DNA of 64,000 nucleotides from Spirochaetales bacterium (lineage in GTDB: Bacteria > Spirochaetota > Spirochaetia > UBA9216): positions 62,001 through 126,000 of the forward strand of contig JAEINK010000002.1 in the NCBI GenBank assembly GCA_016342585.1, in the 5' to 3' direction. Position 1 is the stretch's first letter, and every line of letters begins with the position of its first letter. Position numbers and translations under genes: made by a program. The notes below the pieces were generated by a model. That model searched no databases and had not been told where the DNA came from. It saw only the letters and a program-made list of their open reading frames with translations. Shown piece after piece: positions 10,517-49,070 of the stretch.

Positions 10517-13141
10517 ATGGGCATGCTTTTCTTCAAGAAAAAACCCGAAACCGATCCTGATGATTTTATTCAGGAGCGCTGGACTGCCAAATTCCGGAAA
10601 ATTGAATCACAAAGATTTGAGATAGAGGACGGAGATGGATATTCCTCAGCTTATGAGGGGGATGATTTCATTCTAAAACTTAAAAGGGCGAATCTATTTG
10701 GCTGGGCCGGAAATCCATGGTTTCAGTACCGGGATTTTAACCTGGAAGCTGATTGTTCCTTCGGGGCGGCTAATGGGTATTCGGCCATGGGATTCTGTTT
10801 TCGTCAGATAAACGATGCCAACTACTACTATTTTCTTGTTTCCAACCGAGGTTATTTTAGATTTGATCTTGTTTTTAATAATACTCCCCAGGTTTTGATC
10901 CCCTGGACCCGGTTTACCTCTTCTGAAAAGCCTGAAAACTCACGGGATATTCATCTGCGAATTGTTGCCCGGGAGAATCGTTTTATCTTTCTCATTGACG
11001 AGGAGTGGGTTGGTGAGGCTGATGATGACTCAATCTCTTCCGGTCGTTTTGCCTGGGCCGGTCAAAACTATGATGAAGCGGTTGAGGCTGATTTTATTCT
11101 TCACAGCCTAACCCTCGACTCCCGTCCTCTGGAGGTGGAAGCCTCCTATTACCGTTGGGGTGAGTATGTTCCGGTTGATCCCTCCTTAAGGTTCCGCCTT
11201 GCTGAGAGCCTTTTCCTGCTGGGGGCGTACTCTCCTACACTCATTCAGCTTAAAAAGATACGCCGAAATAAGGATTTCTCTTTTGAAGAGAATCTTTTAG
11301 CCGCCAAGTCATTCCTTGGCTCCGCCTTTTATGAGGAGGCCCTCTCATCGGCTGAAAAATGCCTGAAGACGGAACCCGATAATATTGAGGCTATTCAGGT
11401 GGCAGGTACGGCATTGTATACACTGAACAGACTCCTTTTATTGAAAGAGCTCCTGGAAGAGAAGGGGGAACTCCTGAAAGGGTTCTCCTGGTACTGGGGG
11501 CTGGCCGGGAATGGCGAGTATGGGCTGGGTAACTGGGATACCGCTGTGCACTTTTATAAAAAGGCAGTTGAGTTTTTTCCTGAAGAACCCCTTTTTATAG
11601 AAAATCTTGCCCGGGCGGTGGCGAAGTCCGGTGGACACACCCAAAGTACCTCTCCTGATGTGGTCTCTGATTCCCTCAGTGCAGCAGACGCCGTTGAAGA
11701 GGGCATAGTTTCAGAGGATACAGTCTCAAAGGACATAGTTTTAGATGAAATTCCTGAAAATGGGGCTGAGGGGGTTGCCGAGACGCCTGCTGAGTTTGAA
11801 CTTCTTTCATCCCTGGAAGAGGCGGCAAAGCTTTATTTCAGGCAGGAAGAGTATGGACAGGTTCAGAGCCTGATTGAAAGCATTTGCCGAATTGACCCTG
11901 CCAATCCAACAGCGGCTATCCTGAAGGGAAAACTCCTGTTTTTTGAAGAGAAATGGGATGCGGCCATGGAGGTTTTTGCTCCCCTGGCAGAGGCCGGTGA
12001 CACTGAAGATTCCAGCGTCTATTTCTTATATGGATTACTGCTGGGGTTTCATGATCTCCGGGAACTTGCCGGCCGATATCTTGAGAAAGCTGCTGAAATG
12101 GAACCGGAAAGTTTCATTTATCAGTTTAAAGCTGCCGAATCCCTTCACCTTCGGGGGGAGGATATGGGGCCCTACATCGAAAATGCCATGATTCTTGAGC
12201 CCGAAGATATCTGGGCTAATAACCTCGCCGGACTCGATGCTCAGGAGAAGGGGAGGACAGATGCCGCTCTTGAATACCTCAGTAAAGGGTGGACCCTTTA
12301 TCAGGCGAACCGTGGAACAGAATCCGAAGGATCCGGTGGTGTCGATCTTTTAATCAACTATTCTCAGGTTCTCTTCGATGCGGGACGGAGTGATGAAGCC
12401 CTGAAACTTCTTGAAGATCATCCGGAGTCTGAGGTTTTTAATCATAAGGGAAACCTCCTTTCTGCTCTGGGTGATTTTCCCGGAGCCGTTGATGCCTATG
12501 AGAAGGCTGTTGCGGGTGCTAAGGAGAATCGTGTTTATATTTTGAATTGTGCTACTGCCTGTATTGAGGCTGACTTTGTCCTTCGGGCTGAAGAGCTTCT
12601 CCAGTTATCTGGTGAACAGGATGCTGAGGTAATTAACCTTTTGGGAAATCTGGCCCGTATCAAAGGAGAGTTTGCCCGGGCGGAAGCCGCCTATCTGGAG
12701 GCGTTGAAAAGTGAGCCTGAAAACAAGGTCTTTCTTCTTAATCTTGCAGAACTTCTTCATCAGCGGGGGAATCATGCAGAGGCCCTTGCTCTAATTGAGA
12801 AAATCCCGGAGGATGCGAACACTCGCCGGGGTAAAAGGTTATATACGTCGGTTAAGAATGCCATGGAGCAGCATCTTGAATGTTCATCTTGTGGTCATGA
12901 GTGGATTCTTCCCCGGGATATTTCAGATCAGGGAGGCCTGAAACTGCATGGTGAGATCCCTGATGATGCCCCTGCCGGCAGGTGTCCCTCCTGTGGAAAG
13001 CTCTATTGCGTCTCGTGTGCCGGCCATCCAGATACGGATGGGCGTTTTATCTGCTCTGAATGTGATGAAAAACTTCTGATTAATGAGAAAAAAATATTGT
13101 ATATCCTACGGAAACGCTTGGGATTTTCTGCTGAAAAATAA
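10517..13141 (+). CDS. LamG-like/TPR/zinc-ribbon protein
   Basis: 874 residues, no signal peptide. Residues about 10-200 form a beta-rich module with ANGYSAMGFCFRQINDANYY, RGYFRF and EADFILHSLTL segments, reminiscent of concanavalin-like glycan-binding (3-keto-disaccharide hydrolase-type) domains. Residues about 210-790 are TPR repeats, split by an acidic Val/Ser-rich linker near 390-420. The C-terminus holds paired CxxC knuckles: CSSCGHEW, CPSCGKLYCVSC and ICSECDEKLL, probably binding two zinc ions. I do not know this combination by name. The start has a weak ribosome-binding site; an alternative ATG lies two codons later. It is cytoplasmic by lack of export signals; role unknown, perhaps a scaffold. 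Confidence 0.7.
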   Translation: MGMLFFKKKPETDPDDFIQERWTAKFRKIESQRFEIEDGDGYSSAYEGDDFILKLKRANLFGWAGNPWFQYRDFNLEADCSFGAANGYSAMGFCFRQINDANYYYFLVSNRGYFRFDLVFNNTPQVLIPWTRFTSSEKPENSRDIHLRIVARENRFIFLIDEEWVGEADDDSISSGRFAWAGQNYDEAVEADFILHSLTLDSRPLEVEASYYRWGEYVPVDPSLRFRLAESLFLLGAYSPTLIQLKKIRRNKDFSFEENLLAAKSFLGSAFYEEALSSAEKCLKTEPDNIEAIQVAGTALYTLNRLLLLKELLEEKGELLKGFSWYWGLAGNGEYGLGNWDTAVHFYKKAVEFFPEEPLFIENLARAVAKSGGHTQSTSPDVVSDSLSAADAVEEGIVSEDTVSKDIVLDEIPENGAEGVAETPAEFELLSSLEEAAKLYFRQEEYGQVQSLIESICRIDPANPTAAILKGKLLFFEEKWDAAMEVFAPLAEAGDTEDSSVYFLYGLLLGFHDLRELAGRYLEKAAEMEPESFIYQFKAAESLHLRGEDMGPYIENAMILEPEDIWANNLAGLDAQEKGRTDAALEYLSKGWTLYQANRGTESEGSGGVDLLINYSQVLFDAGRSDEALKLLEDHPESEVFNHKGNLLSALGDFPGAVDAYEKAVAGAKENRVYILNCATACIEADFVLRAEELLQLSGEQDAEVINLLGNLARIKGEFARAEAAYLEALKSEPENKVFLLNLAELLHQRGNHAEALALIEKIPEDANTRRGKRLYTSVKNAMEQHLECSSCGHEWILPRDISDQGGLKLHGEIPDDAPAGRCPSCGKLYCVSCAGHPDTDGRFICSECDEKLLINEKKILYILRKRLGFSAEK

Positions 13142-37236: not shown

Positions 37237-38154
37237 TCACCTCTTGTTCCTGTTCAGAAACTCCTGGAAGGCATCCATCTCACTTTTGTAGGCATCCTTC
37301 TCCTCCTGTAGAGATTCCTGGAGGGCATCTTCCTCTTCCTGAAGCACTCTCTGAAAATCTTCCATCTCCTGGCTGTAATAATCCCGGAATCTATCCATGT
37401 ACTCTTTGTAATCATCGAAGAAGTCATCATCTGAAAAATATTCAAGATAGGCCTCTCGTTCGAGATCCTTGAAATATTCAAAATCATTATAATACTCTTC
37501 GAAGTCATAATGGGGGACATCTTTCGGGTTCAGGTTTCGGAATCTGAACCTGTTGGTGATCCTTGCCACCTCTTCTGCCTCATCTTCCATGATTGTAAGG
37601 ATCTGGTGTTTGGCCTTGGCAACTTCACCCTCAATTATTTCCATGGATGAACCGGTCTGAGGGTTATAAATGTCAACAATACCAGTATTTACGGCAACAG
37701 CAGCCCCTTCCCGGTTATCAACTTCGACAATGAAATCGGTACCTCTAACCCCCAGAGCCATGGAAGGAGTCTGGATGGAGTAGTTATTCCCCTGTACCCT
37801 GGCTGCGATAACCCTCAGCTTCCCTTTTGTTTGAACTATGGTGTTCTGTCTTGTTCCCGATACCCCCTGAAGTTCCTTCAGTTTTATAAAGGTATGAGGA
37901 TAGAGGTTGAGGATGGAACCATTGGGTTCGAGTCTCAACTCTGCATAAGAGTTTTCTGTTTGTATTCCATAGCCGATAAGCAATTCGGTGCCGAAATCAA
38001 AATCATCGATCACCTCTCCGGTAAAATCATAGATGGTAATTTCCCAGGGATCGTCAAAATATTCCAGAATGGCAACAGGAAGTTCCTCACAAAAAAGGCT
38101 CATCCCAGAGAGTAAAAAAAGAAAAGTACATATTGAAACTGTAATTCTGCTCAT
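37237..38154 (-). CDS. FecR-domain protein with acidic coiled-coil tail
   Basis: 305 residues. The signal peptide is cleaved near LFCEELP. Residues about 45-180 are a FecR domain with ELRLEPNGSILNLYPHTFIK and the hallmark SIQTPSMALGVRGTDFIVEV. The C-terminal third is very acidic and aromatic (DDFFDDYKEYMDRFRDYY), then a Glu/Gln coiled coil (EDFQRVLQEEEDALQESLQE). FecR domains in spirochaetes occur on exported proteins without a sigma factor, so this is not a classical FecI regulator. Divergent from the barrel/transglutaminase gene with 189 bases between. Role unknown, possibly an envelope scaffold. Confidence 0.75.
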   Translation of the reverse strand: MSRITVSICTFLFLLSGMSLFCEELPVAILEYFDDPWEITIYDFTGEVIDDFDFGTELLIGYGIQTENSYAELRLEPNGSILNLYPHTFIKLKELQGVSGTRQNTIVQTKGKLRVIAARVQGNNYSIQTPSMALGVRGTDFIVEVDNREGAAVAVNTGIVDIYNPQTGSSMEIIEGEVAKAKHQILTIMEDEAEEVARITNRFRFRNLNPKDVPHYDFEEYYNDFEYFKDLEREAYLEYFSDDDFFDDYKEYMDRFRDYYSQEMEDFQRVLQEEEDALQESLQEEKDAYKSEMDAFQEFLNRNKR

Positions 38155-38343
38155 AACTTTACATTGTAGATCAAGTGCCCATTTTTAACTACTTTTTTAT
38201 AAAAGTTACAAGAAAAATTATGACATTGACGCAATAAATCGGGTCTTCAACCATCTTATGTGATAAATTCAGTATATGAAAATTAAAATGTGACTGTTAT
38301 ACTAAGACTTGGATAATATCGGGATAATATATGGGGGAGCGTC

Positions 38344-40464
38344 ATGACCAGGAAAATAACACTTATTATAGTATTTCTACCAATATTCTTATTTAACAGC
38401 TGGAGTCAGTCGATAGAAGATTTTGCCGTACATTTCAGGCCGGGTGTAGAAATCCCAATTGGTGAAAAAAGTGTACTCACTGACCAGAATGGCACATATA
38501 AAATCGGTGGTTCCACCGGGATCTTCGGTCAGTATATTTTTCCCAGACTCCCCCTTCTCTATCTTGAAGGACATATCAACGTTGGACTCCATCCCACACC
38601 GGCTCAGGATATCCTGGCTCTTACCTCTGCCGGGATGGGGCTTGGTTTTGATTTAAGGGTTGCCGACGCATTAAGTATTCAGCTTGGGGGAGAAGCCGGG
38701 GGAAGCCTGGGTTTTTTTGGTTCCAATGAGGCTGCAGGGAATCCCTATTTTGGCGGCACAGCCGGTGTCATCCTCGATTTATCACCGGGATTTGCCATCT
38801 CAGCGGGAGGTTCCTACCGATACCATATGGGGTGGGATGAGACAGCAGAGTCATATACCGACCTGTATCAAGGGGTTGCCGGGTGGCTGGGAACGGTTTT
38901 AAGGTTTAACCCCGAATCAGGGAGACAGAAACTTCAGGTTTTAGATATAAAGACCGAACCGATCTTCCCTGTATTTTTCGGATACTATGAGGATAACTCC
39001 TTTGGTACCCTCACCATAAAAAACCTGGAAAACTCTTCAATTTCCAATGTTGATGTCTATTTTGATGTTGGTGAATATATGGAGCAGCCGGTTCTCACCG
39101 AATCGATAAGTTCAATAGGCCGGAATGAAGAGGCTGATATAGATTTGAAAGCCCTTTTTACAAGCCGGGTCATGAATCTGACCGAGAGTGCCAAGGTTTC
39201 ATCGGAAATCCGAATTGATTATACTTACCTTGGAGAACGCTTTTCATATACCTATCCTCATACCGTCAGGATTCTGGATAGAAATTCCATGACCTGGGAT
39301 GATGATAGAAAAGCCGCCTCCTTTGTAACATCCCGTGATCCTTCGGTTTTAATTTTCTCAAAGAATACGGCCGGTATTATTCGAGATCTTGGTAAAAACC
39401 CTTTGAACCTCAATTTTCGAATTGCTATGGGGCTTTTTGAAACCTTAAAAATATACGGAATGAATTATGTCATCGATCCCCAATCCTCCTTTGTGGAGGC
39501 CTCCCAGGATGCCCTTTTCCTGGATTATCTCCAGTTTCCATCCCAGTCCCTTATCTATAGAGCGGGTGATTGCGATGACCTTTCAATTCTTTTTGCGGCA
39601 CTCCTGGAGTCTGTCGGGATCGAAACTGCTTTTATAACTGTTCCCGGCCACATCTTCATGGCTTTCTCTCTGGGCCTATCCCCCAATGAGGCCGTTAAGG
39701 AGTTTACAAATACCGATGATTTTATTTTTATTGAAGATGGAACCTGGGTTCCCCTTGAAACAACCATGATTCAGGAGGGATTTTTGAAGTCTTTCAGAAC
39801 CGGCGCCAAACAGTGGCGTGATGCTGTCGCCAAAGAGGTGAATGGCTTTTTCCCCATTCATAGGGCTTGGGAAACCTATCAGCCGGTGGGATTCAATAGC
39901 GGTGCTCTATCACTCCTTTTTCCCGATCCCGATGATATCATTGAAAACTACACAACCAATCTTGATGCCTACGTAAGTCAGGAGATTCGGGCACAGGTTG
40001 AATACTTTGAGTCCCGAATCAGAAATCGTGGGGATAAACCGGGGATCCGAAACAGTTTTGGGATCCTCTATGCCCGGTATGGTCTTTTTGATAAAGCGGA
40101 AGAACAGTTCCTGGCAGCTATCAATTTGAACAGGAGTGCCCACAATACCATGGTAAACCTTGGGAATCTCTATTTCCTGCAGGATGATATGCATGGTGCC
40201 CTCGAATGGTATGAAAAGGCCGCCGCCCTTGCCCCGGATAACCACCTCGTTATTGCCGGCATAGCCCGGGCAAAGTTTGAGCTTGAAGATTATCAGGCTG
40301 CTCAGGATGAGTATAGCCGTCTGGCAGAAGTTAACCCGGAGATGGCGGCTAACTATTCTTATATTGGAAATACAAACAGCTCTATTGTTCGCGCTGCTTC
40401 CGCTATGGATAAGGGAAAGACCTTCTGGGAAGATGATGAAGAGAACGAAGAAGGCGAGGAATAA
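38344..40464 (+). CDS. Beta-barrel/transglutaminase-like/TPR exported protein
   Basis: 706 residues, signal peptide cleaved near SWSQ. Residues about 25-190 look like an outer-membrane barrel-type domain (GHINVGLHPTPAQDILALTS, GGTAGVILDLSPGFAISAGG). Residues about 200-330 form a beta-sandwich (CARDB-like, LTIKNLENSSISNVDVYFDV). A transglutaminase-like cysteine peptidase domain follows at about 350-500 with the triad regions YRAGDCDDLS, VPGHIFMAF and WVPLETT. TPR repeats follow (NTMVNLGNLYFLQDDMHGAL). The tail is acidic. It is followed after 12 bases by the 2000-residue Ig lipoprotein, so it may process or anchor that protein (inference). Confidence 0.75.
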   Translation: MTRKITLIIVFLPIFLFNSWSQSIEDFAVHFRPGVEIPIGEKSVLTDQNGTYKIGGSTGIFGQYIFPRLPLLYLEGHINVGLHPTPAQDILALTSAGMGLGFDLRVADALSIQLGGEAGGSLGFFGSNEAAGNPYFGGTAGVILDLSPGFAISAGGSYRYHMGWDETAESYTDLYQGVAGWLGTVLRFNPESGRQKLQVLDIKTEPIFPVFFGYYEDNSFGTLTIKNLENSSISNVDVYFDVGEYMEQPVLTESISSIGRNEEADIDLKALFTSRVMNLTESAKVSSEIRIDYTYLGERFSYTYPHTVRILDRNSMTWDDDRKAASFVTSRDPSVLIFSKNTAGIIRDLGKNPLNLNFRIAMGLFETLKIYGMNYVIDPQSSFVEASQDALFLDYLQFPSQSLIYRAGDCDDLSILFAALLESVGIETAFITVPGHIFMAFSLGLSPNEAVKEFTNTDDFIFIEDGTWVPLETTMIQEGFLKSFRTGAKQWRDAVAKEVNGFFPIHRAWETYQPVGFNSGALSLLFPDPDDIIENYTTNLDAYVSQEIRAQVEYFESRIRNRGDKPGIRNSFGILYARYGLFDKAEEQFLAAINLNRSAHNTMVNLGNLYFLQDDMHGALEWYEKAAALAPDNHLVIAGIARAKFELEDYQAAQDEYSRLAEVNPEMAANYSYIGNTNSSIVRAASAMDKGKTFWEDDEENEEGEE

Positions 40465-40476
40465 GGAGATTATATC

Positions 40477-43400
40477 ATGAAAAAAATCAGCACCATTTGG
40501 AAAGTTCTATCATTATCTATGCTCCTGTTTGTCATCATTTTCGGATGCCGAAATTCTCTTGTAAATATTATAGAGGATGAGGTTGCGGTTGCGGTAACTG
40601 CTCCTGAAGTTCTTTCTATCTACCCGACTGTCGCCGCCGAAGATATACCTATCTCCTTAAGTACGATTACAGCGACTCTTTCAAAACCGATTGAAGAGTC
40701 CTCTGTTAAAGTATCTACTTTCTTCGTGACGGATCCATCCGGTACCATTATCAATGGTTCGAGACAAGTTGATAACGAGACAATAACATTTACCCCCGTC
40801 TCTTCTCTGATGGTGGGCACTGAATATGCGGTAACTATTGATGGTGTAACCGATAAAGATGGAAATGTAATCTCTGAATTATATACCTGGAGTTTTACCA
40901 CCGGGATAATTGGGGATACTGTTGTTCCTGTTATCTCAGAGGTGACGCTCAATGAGGGGGCTGAATGGACTAACAGCCAAACTGTGGATGTGTTTATCGC
41001 GGCTTCGGATAACTTCGGTATTGCCCAGATGAATGTTTCAACTACAGGGAACTTTTCAGATGCTGGCTGGAATACATGGACCCCGTTATTAAGTGTTGAA
41101 TTCCCTGATGGGGATGGGGCAAAAACCCTTTATGTAAAGGTTAAAGATGGATCCGGTAATGTTTCTGAGGGTATTGCTTCGGCAGTAATCGGCCTTGATA
41201 CTACGGCTCCAATTGTAAATTCATTTGTTATTGATGGTGGGAAAAGTGGTACCCGGAAGGATAATGTAACTGTTGATATTCTCGCCAGTGATGAAGACGC
41301 TGGAAGCGGGATATTTGATTACCGGATTCGTCTTCACGGCGGAGAAGTTTGGACGGTTGATGACTGGACTACTCTTCCGGAGAGTGGTATTTTTATTCCG
41401 GTTTATTCTTTAAGTGTAAGTGCCGATGAAACAGAAATTATTGAGCTTCAGGTCAGAGATCGTGCTGGAAATGAATCTCTTGTTATTGATAGATCAATAA
41501 CAAGAGATTTCACTCCACCCTCAATTAATCTGGGACTTTCTAATCCTATACCCAATTCTGATGACAATAAGACAAAATCTTATGTAAAAATCGCTTTTGA
41601 TGGTGAGATGAATACCTCTACATTTAGTGGAGAAAGTATTAATATTTCAAAAGGAGCTGATCAAATTTCTTCAGACATCTATGAAATTGTTGATGGAAAA
41701 TCTGCTCTTGAATTTACAGAATTTCAGATTTGGGATGTCTCTGAAGGTGATTATGTTGAATATTTCCTTGAACAAAACGTTTCATATACAGTATTTATAA
41801 GCAGTTCTGTATCCGATGTCGCCGGTAATACCTTCGAAGGTGATTACTCTTACTCTTTTTCCAATGGCGCTTTTTTAGATGAAACAGCACCAATTGGTTT
41901 TGTTGTTTTGGATCTTGATGACATTAATTTAAATGCGACTCCAATTTCGAGCTTTGATCTGGAGATCAAAGCGGAAGATGATTATAACGGTGTTCGAGCT
42001 GTGAAGATTTGGGGTGATAATAATAACACTGAGGCTCTTTTTGAGAGTGAGGCGACCTGGGCTCTTTATTCAGAGGGTGCAACTACACCTGAAAATATCA
42101 GTTATATGAGCTATTCACCTGTGATTGGAAATGCATGGCCCCTGCCGATTACCGATGGTGATTATTTTATTTATTATAAGTTTGTTGATTATGCCAATAA
42201 TGAATCTGATGTTCCTGGAATATTGAGGGTCAGTCTGGATACGACAGAACCGGTTATTAATAATATTTTTACAGATGGAGGAACAGGCTATTCTAATAAT
42301 TTTGATGATACAATTAATATAATTTTCGATGCAGAAGATGCTGGTTCTGGTCTTAAGGAAATGTGGTTTTCTGTAGAAGCAAGTGATACTCTGAATCTTC
42401 CAGCAACAAAGGCTTTTGATGCAATTGAATGGCAGGAGTGGTCTTCGATTATAAGCGATTATACCCTTGATTCAGGGGAAGGGAAGTATTTCATCTATGG
42501 AGAGGTTAAGGATCATGTAGATTGGCAGTCCGGAGATACTTCAGGTGTCGCCGATTATACTACAGTTATATTGGACTATACTCCACCGGAAATAGGATTT
42601 GAACTCACTGATCTTGTAGAGACAAACAGAATCGCGCTTCAAACATCAACTATTGTTGATAATCATCCTGATGGCAGCCTTGGGTACCAGATTCCTTCAG
42701 GTGTTGATTCTTACTCCTGGGAGCAAGTTGATGAAGAGGGGACCGGTCCAGGTTTAATTCGGTTTTTTATCGAGGCATCAGGGGAAACTGCTGATTCTAC
42801 TGTTGAAGAACCATATATTGCTGTAGGTGATGAAGAAAATAATTCTATCACGGATGGTTCTGTTGATGGAACCTACATTATAAAAGTAGTAGCCGAGGAT
42901 AATGCCGGTAATAGTGCAGAGAGCAGTGTAGAATTTGTATGGGATACTTTAGATCCAAATGATGTTGGCACTTTAACTGCCTTTGTTGATGTCGTTGTAG
43001 ATGAAGCAACTGGTGAAACTCAACAAACGCAGTTCACTACATCGGATAACTTGGAAATCGAATATATAAACTATTCTCAACCATATATATCCTGGGATTC
43101 TCCTAATGGAGCTGATTTCTTTACTATCATGCCTTCCTCGGATGTTCAGACTCCTAATACACCTCCCGGAGTAGCTGAAAGTGACCCTGCATGGTATTCC
43201 TACTGGGATGATCCTGCAATTGACTGGGCGGATTCTGCCACATATGATAATGCAAATAAGTATTTCATCCGCAGTGAAGATCCCATTGTCTCTCCTCGAT
43301 CACCCACATACACGGGGCAAAATGATGGTTTAGCTTATTTATATATAGCAGCATGGGATAATGCGGGAAATAGATCAAATCGAACGACTGATCAGGTTGT

Positions 43401-46400
43401 CAAATTCTGGATTGATACCTTGGCTCCTATTATTACTACTTTGCAGGAACATTCACCCATCAATTCAACTCTGACTCTGGATTACCATAATGGTGATAAT
43501 TTAGGTGACGGCAGAGTTTATGATCAGCTAACGAGTAACGATCCTTCACCAGACAATCGGGGTAGTGGAATACAATCTTATTTCTGGGCTCAGACGGATG
43601 GCCCCGGTACTTTGACGATTACTAATGGTGATACCCTTACACCTTCGATTTCGGCACCTGATGATGGTTCTGAGGATGGTCAATATGAGGTTTCTCTCAC
43701 TGTAACTGATTTCGCCGGTAATTCAGCTACTGGCTATTATGCATTCGAGTGGGATACGACTCCACCGAATGTTCCAGTGTTAACTGCTTTGGATCACACC
43801 CCTAACCTAAGTCCTACCTGGTCTTTTACCAGTGGTGGAAATGGTAATGGTACATATCGATACAGGATCGATAGGATCGGTCGTTATAATTGGAATGATC
43901 CTGATGAATCCACTGGAGGAGCATATTATGGTTCCTCTGAGGTTGTTCTAGGCTGGAATAATATTACTGAACTATTCCTGAACCATGGTGTTTTAACAGA
44001 CGGATATGAGTATACCCTTTTTGTTCAGGAGCAGGATGACGCGGGGAACTGGTCTGACTCTGATTCCCTGGCTATCTGGATAGATGCAGAATGGACATCA
44101 GCACCTTCTGTTACCAGGGAAGGTGCCTATTTAAGAAATGGTGATGCAGGAGCCCGGGAAGTAACATGGAACTGGACAACGGGAACCGGAACAACCGGAG
44201 TACAGCGATATCGGGTTCGATTGAAAAATCAAAGCGGATCTGTTGAACCCGGTTATGACTGGACGGATCTGGTAGATGATGATCTTGATTACTTTATTGA
44301 CTTTTCCCCTTCCGGTGAAAATCTGGATGATGGAACCTATACCCTGGAAGTGGAAGAATATAATATGAGTGATCCTGAAGATCCTCCACTTGTAGGAAAG
44401 GTTGGTACCAGCAGTGTTCAAATCGATTCGATAGCACCTGATGCCCCAATATTAAATTCTAAACCTGGATATTTATATTCAGGGCAGGATGATCCTGACT
44501 GCTATTTGACTAACGATACAACCCCTTATTTCCGTTGGTCCACCGGAGGTAATGGTGGTAGTGGAGATTATCGATGGAGATTTGATGCAGATGCTTGGAC
44601 CTATACCCGAACCTACTATATGTCGCCATCCAAGGCGGAAGGAGTTTATATATTCGAGGTTCAGGAACGCGATTCCGCTGGAAACTGGTCTGATGGGATT
44701 ACTCATGAGTTTGAGATTGACGCTACCGGTCCGACTTTAAGTGGAATAACCTTAAGAAACAGAGCTACAAATCCATATAACAACTACTATTTTACTACAT
44801 CCACTTCAATCAATATTGATGTCTCTGGTTCCGGTTCCAATAATCAGACGTTTACATCAGATGATGTTCGGTATATGCGGTTCTGGAATGAAGGTGGGAC
44901 AAAATCAACTTACTATTTTAATTCAACTATGGCGGGCTGGAATTTTTCAAACGGTGGTGCTTCTGCAGCGGATGGTTCAAAGACTGTCTATTGTGAGCTT
45001 GTCGATTACGCCGGAAATGTCTCCCTAACTAATGTTTCCGATTATATAACTTTGGATACTTCTGCACCTACAATTACAAATTTGAACCTGGATAATGGAG
45101 CGGAAGTAGCTACCTCTACATATGTTTATCTGAATAGCACTCTTGGTGAGGGTGCTTATAAGATGAGAGCGAGTAACGACAACGGAGATTCCTGGTCCTC
45201 CTGGTACAGTGATGATGAGGACTTAAGATTAAATATTCTCTCCTCAGGAAATGGAGCTAAGAATATAATTGTCCAGGTTACTGATATCGCTGGTTATTAC
45301 TGTAGAAACATTTCGACGCAGGTGGCATCACATTATTCTTCTGCAGAAGATGCCATTTTCTATGGGACTCCTGTTATAGAGAATGGAACCAAGGGATTAT
45401 ATTCATATGGTCTAATTGGTGTATATTACGATACTTATCCAACTGCTACTGGTTTATCGACTAATACATATGAACTCTGGGCGTCTACAACTCCGGGTGG
45501 CACTAAGACCAAAATGGGAGAGACTACAAACAGCTCTTACTACAGTATCGATGTTGATACAATAACAACTGACAATTTTGAACGCGGTCAGGCGTATTAT
45601 GTTTACCTTAAGGTCTCCAATCCTGATATTGGTGAGACCTTTTTCAGCAGTAACTATGCACTTGCATTTACTTCGGATATGACTATCATTTATAATGATG
45701 CTGATGCCGATGACACAACTCTTGCCAGCTATTTAAAGACCTGGATAAAAAGAGATTGGGCCTCAGACTATTCTTCATACTTTGATTTTAGATATGGTTC
45801 ATTTTTAGAATATTCGGTTACTCTTGTTCCTCAGGATGAGATTGCTGATACATGGTATGACGAAGGCACTAACGAGACTATAATTTACGGTAATCCCATT
45901 ATTACCACACCAGCCAGTGAACTTACCTACAGTTCTGTGAATGATTATGCTATTCCCAGGAACATAATTATGGGCGCCAAGGGGCTTATGGGAATGCATT
46001 ACAATGGTTGGAGGATGTTTCAAGTACCCACTATCCGTGTGGCGGATGTTGCCACGAATTGGGGATATACCGAACAGTTACCCGTCGATCTTGATTATGC
46101 TTATGATAACGGAACTACACAGCAGATGGGAACGAAAGAATGGGATGCTGATTTTGAGTATCAGTGGTATCGATACTTGAAACACAAGAGTACATATGAT
46201 AATTACAGATATGAACCTGATCACAATGTTACGACATTTTTTACAAGTTCAACTAATATGATATTTGGAACAGCCCATAGATGGTCTTTATCTGTTAATT
46301 CGACTGCAGGAGAGCGAGATTGTTCTTATTGGGCAGATGACCCACTCTATTCAAACTCGGCAACAGTAGCCCGGCAAGGTGAGTTTGTGTACTGGGGATA

Positions 46401-46479
46401 TGATCGACTGCCAATTTATTATTCGGCGGCAGTACCCCTCCTGTACAACACAGTGCGTTATTTGAATACATATTACTAA
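40477..46479 (+). CDS. Giant Ig-like-repeat surface lipoprotein (2000 residues)
   Basis: Exactly 2000 residues, with a lipoprotein signal ending IIFGCRN. Residues about 42-143 form a Big_5/SbsA-type Ig domain (YPTVAAEDIPISLSTITATL). About eleven to twelve further Ig-like modules follow, each marked by a D-x-(T/S)-x-P linker such as DTTAPIVN, DTTEPVINN, DYTPPEIG, DTLAPIITT, DTTPPNVPV, DSIAPDAPI and DTSAPTITN, with DxAGN turns. From about residue 1640 the sequence changes to a non-Ig, aromatic-rich domain ending RYLNTYY. Some 60-base stretches (for example near 42241) are only about one third G+C, lower than neighbouring genes. Probably surface adhesin or matrix protein; encoded 12 bases after the transglutaminase-like gene. 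Confidence 0.75.
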   Translation: MKKISTIWKVLSLSMLLFVIIFGCRNSLVNIIEDEVAVAVTAPEVLSIYPTVAAEDIPISLSTITATLSKPIEESSVKVSTFFVTDPSGTIINGSRQVDNETITFTPVSSLMVGTEYAVTIDGVTDKDGNVISELYTWSFTTGIIGDTVVPVISEVTLNEGAEWTNSQTVDVFIAASDNFGIAQMNVSTTGNFSDAGWNTWTPLLSVEFPDGDGAKTLYVKVKDGSGNVSEGIASAVIGLDTTAPIVNSFVIDGGKSGTRKDNVTVDILASDEDAGSGIFDYRIRLHGGEVWTVDDWTTLPESGIFIPVYSLSVSADETEIIELQVRDRAGNESLVIDRSITRDFTPPSINLGLSNPIPNSDDNKTKSYVKIAFDGEMNTSTFSGESINISKGADQISSDIYEIVDGKSALEFTEFQIWDVSEGDYVEYFLEQNVSYTVFISSSVSDVAGNTFEGDYSYSFSNGAFLDETAPIGFVVLDLDDINLNATPISSFDLEIKAEDDYNGVRAVKIWGDNNNTEALFESEATWALYSEGATTPENISYMSYSPVIGNAWPLPITDGDYFIYYKFVDYANNESDVPGILRVSLDTTEPVINNIFTDGGTGYSNNFDDTINIIFDAEDAGSGLKEMWFSVEASDTLNLPATKAFDAIEWQEWSSIISDYTLDSGEGKYFIYGEVKDHVDWQSGDTSGVADYTTVILDYTPPEIGFELTDLVETNRIALQTSTIVDNHPDGSLGYQIPSGVDSYSWEQVDEEGTGPGLIRFFIEASGETADSTVEEPYIAVGDEENNSITDGSVDGTYIIKVVAEDNAGNSAESSVEFVWDTLDPNDVGTLTAFVDVVVDEATGETQQTQFTTSDNLEIEYINYSQPYISWDSPNGADFFTIMPSSDVQTPNTPPGVAESDPAWYSYWDDPAIDWADSATYDNANKYFIRSEDPIVSPRSPTYTGQNDGLAYLYIAAWDNAGNRSNRTTDQVVKFWIDTLAPIITTLQEHSPINSTLTLDYHNGDNLGDGRVYDQLTSNDPSPDNRGSGIQSYFWAQTDGPGTLTITNGDTLTPSISAPDDGSEDGQYEVSLTVTDFAGNSATGYYAFEWDTTPPNVPVLTALDHTPNLSPTWSFTSGGNGNGTYRYRIDRIGRYNWNDPDESTGGAYYGSSEVVLGWNNITELFLNHGVLTDGYEYTLFVQEQDDAGNWSDSDSLAIWIDAEWTSAPSVTREGAYLRNGDAGAREVTWNWTTGTGTTGVQRYRVRLKNQSGSVEPGYDWTDLVDDDLDYFIDFSPSGENLDDGTYTLEVEEYNMSDPEDPPLVGKVGTSSVQIDSIAPDAPILNSKPGYLYSGQDDPDCYLTNDTTPYFRWSTGGNGGSGDYRWRFDADAWTYTRTYYMSPSKAEGVYIFEVQERDSAGNWSDGITHEFEIDATGPTLSGITLRNRATNPYNNYYFTTSTSINIDVSGSGSNNQTFTSDDVRYMRFWNEGGTKSTYYFNSTMAGWNFSNGGASAADGSKTVYCELVDYAGNVSLTNVSDYITLDTSAPTITNLNLDNGAEVATSTYVYLNSTLGEGAYKMRASNDNGDSWSSWYSDDEDLRLNILSSGNGAKNIIVQVTDIAGYYCRNISTQVASHYSSAEDAIFYGTPVIENGTKGLYSYGLIGVYYDTYPTATGLSTNTYELWASTTPGGTKTKMGETTNSSYYSIDVDTITTDNFERGQAYYVYLKVSNPDIGETFFSSNYALAFTSDMTIIYNDADADDTTLASYLKTWIKRDWASDYSSYFDFRYGSFLEYSVTLVPQDEIADTWYDEGTNETIIYGNPIITTPASELTYSSVNDYAIPRNIIMGAKGLMGMHYNGWRMFQVPTIRVADVATNWGYTEQLPVDLDYAYDNGTTQQMGTKEWDADFEYQWYRYLKHKSTYDNYRYEPDHNVTTFFTSSTNMIFGTAHRWSLSVNSTAGERDCSYWADDPLYSNSATVARQGEFVYWGYDRLPIYYSAAVPLLYNTVRYLNTYY

Positions 46480-46506: not shown

Positions 46507-46541
46507 CCCGGTCTCCATTATTCATGGTTGCCGGGTTTTTT
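46507..46541 (+). terminator. Terminator after the Ig lipoprotein
   Basis: CCCGG and CCGGG, with an inner CCA/TGG extension, followed by TTTTTT. The ATG at 46524 lies inside this hairpin, which argues that the polymerase gene starts later. Confidence 0.75.
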
Positions 46542-46571
46542 ATTGTTCAGTATTTGGAGTATTATAATTTA

Positions 46572-49070
46572 ATGAGTTTAGGTTTCGCTTCCCGCACAGC
46601 TTACGTTGTAGACGTATACTCCACCGACTCCCGTACTGGTTCAAGTCAGGTAAATATCCTTACCCTATGTTGTCTGGATGGAGAAGGATACTTTGAGGTC
46701 GAGGTTCCAAATAATAGATTAGTCTTCTTTATTGAAAGGATTGCCAATATTCCAGAACTCCGGGGAATGACACGCCGGCAGGTTGGTCTTGTTGACTTCA
46801 ACGGCAAAGCGCTTGATGGTCTCTATTTTAGCTCAGTCTCCGCATTTCGTGAAGGTGCAAAAGGTCTGAGAGAGAGAGGGGTTAATATTCTGGAATCGGA
46901 TGTTCAGCCGGATGAACGATTTCTGATGGAACATTTTATTTTCCGTGGTCTCTCTTTTTCATACAGCTCTATATCTGATTCCTCTAAGGTTCAAAAGGGT
47001 AACTATCAACCCTTTCCTGTCTATAAACTGGAAAGAATAGAACCTGCGGATTATTCCCCTGAATTCAGGATCCTGTCTTTCGACATTGAAACAGGGCAGG
47101 ACGGCAGTCTTTACTGCTGCGGCTTTCACCTTTCCGGACGGGGAGGTGAGAATATGGTTTGTTTCATGTTTGATCCTGCGGTGAATACATCTGAAGGGGG
47201 CGGAGAAAACACAGCCCACAGTGATATGGCTCTTCCATCAGGAGATTCATTCACATACATCTCAGTCCCTACAGAGAAAGAACTTCTTATCCAGACCCTG
47301 AAATATATCAGTGATTCCGATCCTGATATTATAATCGGCTGGAATGTTATCGGTTTTGATTTTACCTTCATGGAGAACAAATGCAGGCAGTTTAACCTCC
47401 CTTTCAGCATCGGTAGACGAGGACAGGCCGCAAAAATTTATAAAAAGAGAAGCGGTCTGTTTTCTGCTGAAGCCTTTGGCAGGCTGGTCATAGACGGTCC
47501 TGTAAACTTGCGCGGCGGATTCCACAGCTTTGAAGATTACAGGCTGGAGACCGTAGCCCGGGAACTCCTGGGGGAAGGGAAGGCCATCTCCGGCCATGCC
47601 GAGAGTGATGAAAAGATAAAGGAGATCGAAGAGCGTTTCAGGAGTGATAAACCTGCCCTTGCCCTTTATAATATCCTCGATTGTGTGCTAGTCACGCGTA
47701 TCTTCAAAAAGACAGCACTCATCGAACAGTTGGTGACCAGGAGCAGGCTCACCGGTCTCAGGATGGATAAGGTTAACCAGTCCGTAGCGGCTTTTGATTT
47801 TTTCATGCTTCCAAAGCTTCACCGGGCGGGTTATGCCGCCCCGGATGTGGCGGATATCAAAGGTGGTGCCCATGCTGCCGGGGGGTTGGTCTTTACATCG
47901 GCTCCCGGCCTCTACGAAAACATACTGGTCATGGATTTCTTAAGTCTCTATCCCTCGATAATAAGAACCTTTATGATAGATCCCCTTTCAAGGTTGAGTG
48001 CTGAACGGTTCCCCGGGAGTCCCTCTTTCGACACTCCCCCGGGTATTCGCTTTTCCCGGGACACACACATCCTTCCCGATCATGTCGGTCATTTGATGGA
48101 GAGCCGGGCGAAAGCGAAGAGGGATGGGGATGGCCCCCTAAGCCAGGCTGTAAAGATCCTGATGAACTCCTACTATGGTGTTATGGGGACAACCGGCTGC
48201 CGCTTCTATCATCCTGATCTTCCAACAGCCATTACAGGAACCGGTCAGTGGATCCTGAGAACAACCTCTGAATTCATACGGAAGAAGGGTTTTCGGGTCA
48301 TTTACGGGGACACTGATTCGGTTTTCGTCGAGATTAAAGCGGACCGTCCTGATTCAGATAACGACAAAACTGTAGATCAAGGTTCATGCTTAGATAACGA
48401 CAAAACCGTAGATCCACCCCGGGATCCCAGGGCGATCGGCAAAGATCTTGCCCTGGAGATCAATGACTATTTCAACCAAAAATTAAAAGATGAGTTCGGT
48501 GTCGAATCCAAACTCGTTCTGGAGGTGGAGAAACTCTATTCCCGTTTCTTTTTGCCCCCCATGCGGGGAACTTCGGAAGGTTCACGAAAAAAGTATGCCG
48601 GTTTGATAGCCGGATCTGAAGAGATTGAGATAAAGGGGCTTGAATATGTCCGTTCTGACTGGACGGACCTTGCCAAGGATTTTCAGATGGAGCTCTTTCG
48701 AAGGTTTTTTCATAATGAAGAGATCCCCTCCTGGATAAAGGAACAGATCATCCTTATTCGTAATGGTGAGTTTGATGATAAACTGGTGTACAAAAAGCGG
48801 CTCACCAAACCGGCCGAAGAGTATGTTAAAAATATCCCTCCCCATGTGAAGGCTGCCCGCCTCCTTGATCCAGACGGGAAAAGGGGAGTACGGCGAATCT
48901 CCTATGTCATGACCTTTCGCGGTCCGATTCCCACCGCTTTTGACCATATGGATATTGATTATTCACATTACATTGAGAAGCAGATTGTACCTCTGGCCGA
49001 TACGGTTCTTCCTTTTATCGGAACAAGCTATGATGAGATCATTGACGGCCGGCAGGGAGAACTCTTTTAA
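46572..49070 (+). CDS. polB: Family B DNA polymerase (Pol II-like)
   Basis: 832 residues from the ATG at 46572; an earlier in-frame ATG at 46524 lies in a terminator. Exonuclease motifs: Exo I FDIETGQ, Exo II IIGWNVIGFDF, Exo III YNILDC. Polymerase motifs: A DFLSLYPSII, B KILMNSYYGVMG, C YGDTDSVFVE. The full set predicts an active proofreading polymerase, most like bacterial Pol II, used for repair or translesion work. Between motif C and the thumb is an insert holding two copies of DNDKTVD. The start has only a distant GGAG. Followed by a convergent MBL gene. Confidence 0.93.
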   Translation: MSLGFASRTAYVVDVYSTDSRTGSSQVNILTLCCLDGEGYFEVEVPNNRLVFFIERIANIPELRGMTRRQVGLVDFNGKALDGLYFSSVSAFREGAKGLRERGVNILESDVQPDERFLMEHFIFRGLSFSYSSISDSSKVQKGNYQPFPVYKLERIEPADYSPEFRILSFDIETGQDGSLYCCGFHLSGRGGENMVCFMFDPAVNTSEGGGENTAHSDMALPSGDSFTYISVPTEKELLIQTLKYISDSDPDIIIGWNVIGFDFTFMENKCRQFNLPFSIGRRGQAAKIYKKRSGLFSAEAFGRLVIDGPVNLRGGFHSFEDYRLETVARELLGEGKAISGHAESDEKIKEIEERFRSDKPALALYNILDCVLVTRIFKKTALIEQLVTRSRLTGLRMDKVNQSVAAFDFFMLPKLHRAGYAAPDVADIKGGAHAAGGLVFTSAPGLYENILVMDFLSLYPSIIRTFMIDPLSRLSAERFPGSPSFDTPPGIRFSRDTHILPDHVGHLMESRAKAKRDGDGPLSQAVKILMNSYYGVMGTTGCRFYHPDLPTAITGTGQWILRTTSEFIRKKGFRVIYGDTDSVFVEIKADRPDSDNDKTVDQGSCLDNDKTVDPPRDPRAIGKDLALEINDYFNQKLKDEFGVESKLVLEVEKLYSRFFLPPMRGTSEGSRKKYAGLIAGSEEIEIKGLEYVRSDWTDLAKDFQMELFRRFFHNEEIPSWIKEQIILIRNGEFDDKLVYKKRLTKPAEEYVKNIPPHVKAARLLDPDGKRGVRRISYVMTFRGPIPTAFDHMDIDYSHYIEKQIVPLADTVLPFIGTSYDEIIDGRQGELF
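48356..48414 (+). repeat. 36-base imperfect repeat in the polymerase gene
   Basis: AGATAACGACAAAAC(T/C)GTAGATC occurs at 48356-48378 and again at 48392-48414, one base different, encoding DNDKTVD twice just after catalytic motif C. Confidence 0.85.

Follow-up and report, generated by a model that had tools for sequence, protein, structure and literature searches.

Recurrent pairing of a putative transglutaminase-like cysteine enzyme gene with genes for tagged lipoproteins in Spirochaetota

LapG, of which the catalytic triad is Cys-His-Asp (PMC4359373), is a free periplasmic protein under the control of the LapD receptor (PMC13090378; PMC4359373). The substrates of LapG-type enzymes are non-lipidated, secreted by a T1SS or by the type Vb route, and possess a [T/A/P]AAG site (PMC13090378; PMC4359373). 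DvhG binds calcium through the acids that neighbour its Cys (PMC13090378). A barrel and TPRs encoded beside a lipoprotein are the layout of Slam (PMC5449769; PMC9090332). Here we analyzed a window of 64,000 nucleotides from a Spirochaetales bacterium (contig JAEINK010000002.1, positions 62,001 to 126,000), in which a gene for a barrel- and TPR-bearing protein with a transglutaminase-like (Tgl) domain, hereafter the enzyme, is followed by the gene of a giant lipoprotein (Table 1). We found no description of such a unit in the open-licence literature, and an earlier notice elsewhere is possible.

Table 1. Features of the enzyme-lipoprotein locus and the divergent neighbour (positions in the window)
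Feature	Coordinates	Strand	Basis
Divergent FecR-domain protein, 305 aa, neighbour only	37237..38154	-	FecR PF04773, E 4.8e-11
Enzyme partner, barrel/Ig/transglutaminase-like/TPR protein, 706 aa	38344..40464	+	ORF; Pfam; AlphaFold2; paralogues; 365 GTDB relatives
Signal peptide, residues 1-22 (approximate)	38344..38409	+	Hydrophobic core between basic N-terminus and small residues ahead of 23; model helix 2-20
8-stranded OmpA/NspA-like outer-membrane barrel (predicted), residues 27-187	38422..38904	+	AlphaFold2 strands; Foldseek 1p4t, 1bxw/OmpA
Ig-like beta-sandwich domain, residues 197-310	38932..39273	+	AlphaFold2; region inside NCBIfam NF058533 match
Tgl cysteine-enzyme domain, residues 321-510	39304..39873	+	Transglut_core 38/38 members; ProA 38/38; LapG 3/38
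Putative nucleophile Cys410 in GDCDD	39571..39573	+	Invariant 89/89
Putative catalytic His436 in PGHI	39649..39651	+	Invariant 89/89
Putative catalytic Glu472 in WxPxExT	39757..39759	+	Invariant 89/89
TPR domain, residues 529-670	39928..40353	+	Pfam TPR; AlphaFold2; Foldseek CTPR and HSP90-peptide-binding TPRs
C-terminal tail RAAS...W(D/E)xE, residues 683-706	40390..40461	+	Pattern in 78/89 relatives
Ig-repeat lipoprotein, cognate partner, 2000 aa	40477..46479	+	ORF; Big_5/Big_13; lipobox; adjacency statistic
N-terminal tag after lipidated Cys24, CRNSLVNIIEDEVAVAVTAPEV, residues 24-45	40546..40611	+	Orthologue identity; shared motif
Big_5 Ig-like domain beside tag, residues 40-142	40594..40902	+	Pfam 2.9e-18
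Conserved C-terminal region of lipoprotein, residues 1561-2000	45157..46476	+	Aligned across 11 orthologues

A sequence-only reading of the window had placed a barrel-like domain, a Tgl domain and TPRs in a single polypeptide and suggested structure prediction as a check. The AlphaFold2 model of the enzyme (59-row alignment) agrees with this reading and is confident (mean pLDDT 90.2, pTM 0.77); it is laid out as a barrel, an Ig-like beta-sandwich, an alpha/beta Tgl domain, TPR helices and a weakly ordered tail. The predicted barrel fold is of high confidence, has 8 strands in the AlphaFold2 model and, by Foldseek, resembles OmpA as well as NspA (1p4t, target-normalised TM 0.80). Matches to the TPRs and the barrel dominated the Foldseek search with the whole model, and the proteins matched by the TPR helices included HSP90-peptide-binding ones. 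Pfam detected TPRs and a weak transglutaminase-like match in the ORF.

The Cys, His and acidic residues that had looked intact in the window proved to be invariant in the family, as Cys410, His436 and Glu472 were found with their motifs in all of the 89 relatives. Asp409 and Asp411 flank the Cys in 87 of the 89. The invariance of the three residues argues for a working enzyme, and, judging from this alignment, the Tgl domain looks like an active one. When the Tgl domains were searched in isolation (set A5, 38 sequences), Transglut_core (PF01841) matched all 38 family members with a best E of 1e-5; the window domain alone is below the threshold (20.4 bits, with the cut-off at 23). The PF01841 profile and the conserved Cys and His, which together define the Transglutaminase-like superfamily, are thus both present in the family. 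All 38 domains were also matched by the ProA model NF058533, on which we found nothing relevant in the literature. The analogy to LapG drawn in the sequence-only reading held in part: few relatives of the Tgl domain could be detected, and LapG is one of them (the NCBIfam LapG model matched 3 of 38, best E 4.5e-4), but PF06035 (LapG/Peptidase_C93) did not match the window enzyme at E up to 1, and no PF06035 protein was found in the source genome or in 149 Spirochaetota genomes. The best PDB match of the Tgl domain, albeit non-significant (E 0.15), was 4u65_E (LapG of the LapD-LapG complex), and it aligned GDCDD with GDCED. At the sequence level, the Tgl domain is related to LapG weakly and partially.

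The ORF, the 12-base gap behind the enzyme gene, the lipobox (FVIIFG followed by C) and the Big_13/Big_5 repeats detected by Pfam all bear out the Ig-repeat lipoprotein described at first sight. AlphaFold2 gave no usable fold for its C-terminal region (residues 1561-2000; pLDDT 46) and no significant PDB relative was found; a Rossmann-like domain suspected there by eye was dropped on these grounds. Directly after the lipoprotein gene lies a family B DNA polymerase gene, 46524-49070(+), with no apparent link to the unit. According to Pfam, the bodies of 48 partner lipoproteins comprise Big_5, Big_13, FG-GAP and NHL propellers, Listeria-Bacteroides and InlB-like repeats, HYDIN-type Ig and cadherin-like domains, and one penicillin amidase. 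The partner bodies are variable and of adhesin type, and the lipoproteins, which are of surface type, may be exposed on the cell.

We scored adjacency over the 83 enzyme genes that left a neighbour room of 900 bases or more, counting a neighbour if it was on the same strand, carried a lipobox, was at least 200 aa long or cut by a contig end, and started at -130 to +250 of the stop. A lipoprotein gene was found directly downstream in 67 of the 83 and upstream in 3 more, against 24 of 557 (4.3%) for the remaining ORFs of 200 aa or longer in these loci. Homologues that are never adjacent in other genomes had been named as an outcome that would refute the initial reading, and the observed counts are the opposite. 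The resulting 84% is a lower estimate, because the strict lipobox and length rules missed tagged lipoproteins: the cases scored as none hold at least six more tagged partners (L043, L049, L053, L073, L095 and L103). Among the downstream pairs, 39 of 70 overlap the enzyme gene and 26 of 70 are within 25 bases. The source genome possesses about ten paralogues of the enzyme, and all nine copies with a readable neighbour adjoin a large lipoprotein gene, including the one on C105, at which the gene order is reversed. One further copy is split over the ends of contigs C1 and C109, with a lipoprotein following the C109 half. The two halves (L014 and L018; at the start of C1 and at the end of C109) are probably one gene, close to the copy on C48 and with similar neighbours, and the assembly probably broke at this recent duplicate. 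Altogether, the enzyme and the lipoprotein form a genuine pair that recurs widely in Spirochaetota.

The pairs also appear to be faithful. Where the enzyme cores are at least 60% identical, the lipoprotein bodies are alike in 85-94% of the comparisons, versus 0-4% where the cores are less than 50% identical. As the likeness of the bodies tracks the identity of the enzyme cores, cognate pairs seem to stay together, and this comparison of sequences shows the enzyme and the lipoprotein to be co-inherited.

The lipoproteins share a tag directly after the lipidated Cys, C-x-[NDS]-P-L-L-x-x-I-x-x-E-[VI] or, roughly, C-x-[NDS]-P-L-L-x2-I-x3-[VI], although their bodies are mostly unrelated. Positions 5, 6, 9 and 13 are hydrophobic, as they would be along one side of a helix. 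So that descent of the whole proteins from a common ancestor could be excluded, we used greedy sets in which no pair of bodies exceeded 45 bits (sets at 45-80 bits were made), which replaced single-linkage clustering, since the latter chained nearly all bodies into one group via their repeats. A loosened version of the motif fitted 15 of the 20 lipoproteins with unrelated bodies, versus 6 of 45 for other lipoproteins (p 2e-6); with shuffled segments, the count was 3.6 on average and 9 at most. In the orthologue group of the window lipoprotein, the mean identity is 50% in the tag versus approximately 30% along most of the body. The enzymes share an acidic tail, for nearly every C-terminus reads RA[SA]...W[DE]E, and the pattern RA[SAG]-x(4-14)-[WF]-x(0-8)-end was found in 78 of the 89 relatives but in 4 of 958 other ORFs. 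We composed both the tag and the tail pattern with the sequences in view, so that their statistics flatter the motifs. In the overlapping pairs, the codons of the tail also hold the start of the lipoprotein gene. The tail nonetheless persists in L010, L047 and L048, in which the lipoprotein gene is upstream, and thus is not only a by-product of the overlap.

When each GTDB species was represented by one genome, 365 relatives were confirmed, and 79 of their loci, nearly all titled Spirochaetota, were kept; in a sample of the phylum, strong relatives were present in 36 of 296 genomes. One contig labelled Planctomycetota (L073, VRUG01000142.1) carries a copy that is placed among the spirochaete ones on the tree, and the label is probably a binning error. 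We found no relatives in plasmid or phage records and rejected a mobile or phage origin of the unit on this basis. The nine source-genome copies are scattered on the tree of 84 enzyme cores, of which the well-supported branches force at least 4 label changes; this scatter suggests that much of the paralogy is old. The barrel is replaced in five loci, by a papain and a lectin in L054, TPR arrays in L084 and L088 (the former assigned from repeated TPR-region matches of one gene), a beta-helix in L102 and laminin G in L057; of the five, L054 alone adjoins a clearly tagged lipoprotein. This leaves the Ig-like domain, the Tgl domain, the TPRs and the tail as the common core, and, as the barrel is dispensable in some members, the core may work on either side of the membrane. 

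Several variants deserve separate mention. In L054, 7709-11773(+), a papain-family (C1) protease and a lectin-like domain are fused before the Ig/Tgl/TPR core, so that a polypeptide with two cysteine-enzyme domains is encoded beside a tagged lipoprotein. Two enzyme-like genes stand in tandem before or after the lipoprotein in L113, L117 and L118. Between the two enzyme-like genes of L118, which lack the tail, 11640-12077(-) encodes a 145-aa protein ending in ARASDAAEEYPVTEE, the family tail alone; apparently, the part that bears the tail became detached and now forms a gene of its own. The second enzyme of L113, 9676-13281(+), and the lipoprotein of L122, 2194-7680(-), each end in a hydrophobic helix and basic residues (LFIAKKRKEK and FILLMKKMSGT, respectively), and these ends resemble a C-terminal membrane or sorting signal in sequence.

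The divergent FecR-domain gene had initially been counted into a three-gene system. The gene is present and divergent, but a search with the window FecR protein found no relative beside any other enzyme copy; the only weak match was a 771-aa protein in another context (L096, E 7e-4). We therefore rejected the FecR gene as a third component. The search for a conserved three-gene neighbourhood thus recovered the enzyme-lipoprotein pair and not the FecR gene.

To the following reading we give a nearly even chance: a dedicated cysteine enzyme tethered to the outer membrane acts on its cognate lipoprotein by recognising and processing the tagged N-terminus. The enzyme would be anchored in the outer membrane by the 8-stranded barrel. 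In OmpA, the parts that follow an even-stranded barrel face the periplasm, and by analogy the Ig-like domain, the Tgl domain, the TPRs and the tail may be periplasmic. Being next to the lipid anchor, the tag would be located at the membrane, where the enzyme could reach it, and the TPRs or the Tgl cleft may bind the tag of the enzyme's own partner. The pairing and the tag are observed, and the step in which the Cys enzyme processes the lipoprotein near the tagged end is our inference. Cutting appears the more likely chemistry than cross-linking, and it would control the retention or release of the lipoprotein body. The adjacency, the invariant Cys/His/Glu, the shared tag, the faithful pairing, the barrel and the kinship to LapG and ProA support a processing enzyme. 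On the other hand, the weakness of the LapG kinship, the dispensable barrel, Glu in place of Asp and the four of five barrel-less forms without a typical tagged neighbour count against it, as does the fact that a scaffold or chaperone would explain the pairing and the tag with no need for catalysis.

The last point amounts to an alternative, which we regard as unlikely, that the barrel/TPR protein is mainly a chaperone or assembly factor receiving the tag by a Slam-like logic and helping the lipoprotein to reach or stay on the surface, with the Tgl domain secondary. The tag directly after the lipidated Cys, the faithful pairing and the barrel and TPRs beside a lipoprotein, as in Slam (PMC5449769; PMC9090332), fit this alternative. 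Nevertheless, an 8-stranded barrel is too narrow for a Slam-type translocon, the Slam models gave no match above the cut-off, and the three residues invariant in 89 of 89 relatives would be left unexplained. It is improbable that the Tgl domain is a transamidase that forms a covalent link from the lipoprotein, or from the enzyme's own tail, to some other component of the envelope: the fold superfamily includes true transglutaminases and the conserved end of the enzyme, otherwise unexplained, could be an acceptor or donor, but neither ProA nor LapG, the closest curated relatives, is named a transglutaminase and no conserved Gln or Lys was seen in the tag. Finally, secreted-protein genes are often neighbours and barrel-less members often stand alone, but the adjacency of 84% versus 4%, the overlapping starts, the pairing maintained in flipped order and the shared tag make it very improbable that the pair is a matter of chance or bookkeeping and that the enzyme acts on an unrelated target, such as peptidoglycan or another protein.

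Tentatively, and with doubt slightly prevailing, we propose that the units constitute a previously undescribed, phylum-wide surface-display system of spirochaetes, in which interchangeable adhesin-like lipoproteins with the short N-terminal tag are each served by their own Tgl/TPR enzyme, built into the outer membrane. If this is true, approximately ten cognate pairs would operate per cell, with release or anchoring set separately. For the question of how spirochaetes sort and hold large surface lipoproteins, the unit is a concrete, testable candidate; many natural enzyme-lipoprotein pairs are available in one cell, and the tag could serve to recognise such lipoproteins in genomes.

Among the known systems, OmpA shares with the window enzyme an 8-stranded barrel followed by a C-terminal part. 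However, the peptidoglycan-binding C-terminal domain of OmpA was unmatched in Pfam, and the window enzyme possesses the enzyme domain and the TPRs instead. The N-terminal part of ProA (14-305 of NF058533) aligns with the Ig-like domain and the Tgl core (E 3.5e-12), but the model spans 1903 aa with a cut-off of 1500 bits, and the match is one domain block of 44.6 bits at residues 222-509. We saw no phage-defence context around the unit and rejected phage defence via ProA, as the match is at the domain level only. 

The window enzyme is similar to Slam in combining an outer-membrane barrel with TPRs and in the gene adjoining that of a lipoprotein, which in Slam is the client; across the family as well, a lipoprotein is encoded next door, and its role as a client is putative. 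In contrast, the Slam barrel has 14 strands versus 8, the domain order of Slam is the reverse of that in the window enzyme, and the window enzyme has the enzyme domain in addition. In Pfam, only a sub-threshold TPR_Slam match was found, with no Slam/DUF560 match above the cut-off. Identity with Slam was therefore rejected, given the 8-stranded barrel and the lack of a Slam domain above the cut-off.

As in LapG/LapA and DvhG/DvhA, a cysteine enzyme of the Tgl fold is encoded near a giant repeat protein of surface type, and acids flank the Cys in the window enzyme (GDCDD), a possible counterpart of GDCED in the calcium site of LapG. The window enzyme differs from LapG in carrying its own barrel and TPRs and in its third residue, which is Glu in 89 of 89 family members and Asp in LapG, and its partner is lipidated (signal peptide and lipobox), whereas LapG acts on adhesins of the T1SS or type Vb route that have a retention module and an AAG cleavage site. 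The absence of PF06035 from 149 Spirochaetota genomes, the lipidated partner and the Glu led us to reject identity with LapG. If the enzyme trims its partner, the unit would be an independent solution to the problem that Lap solves for secreted adhesins, with the substrate and the enzyme locked together in one operon.
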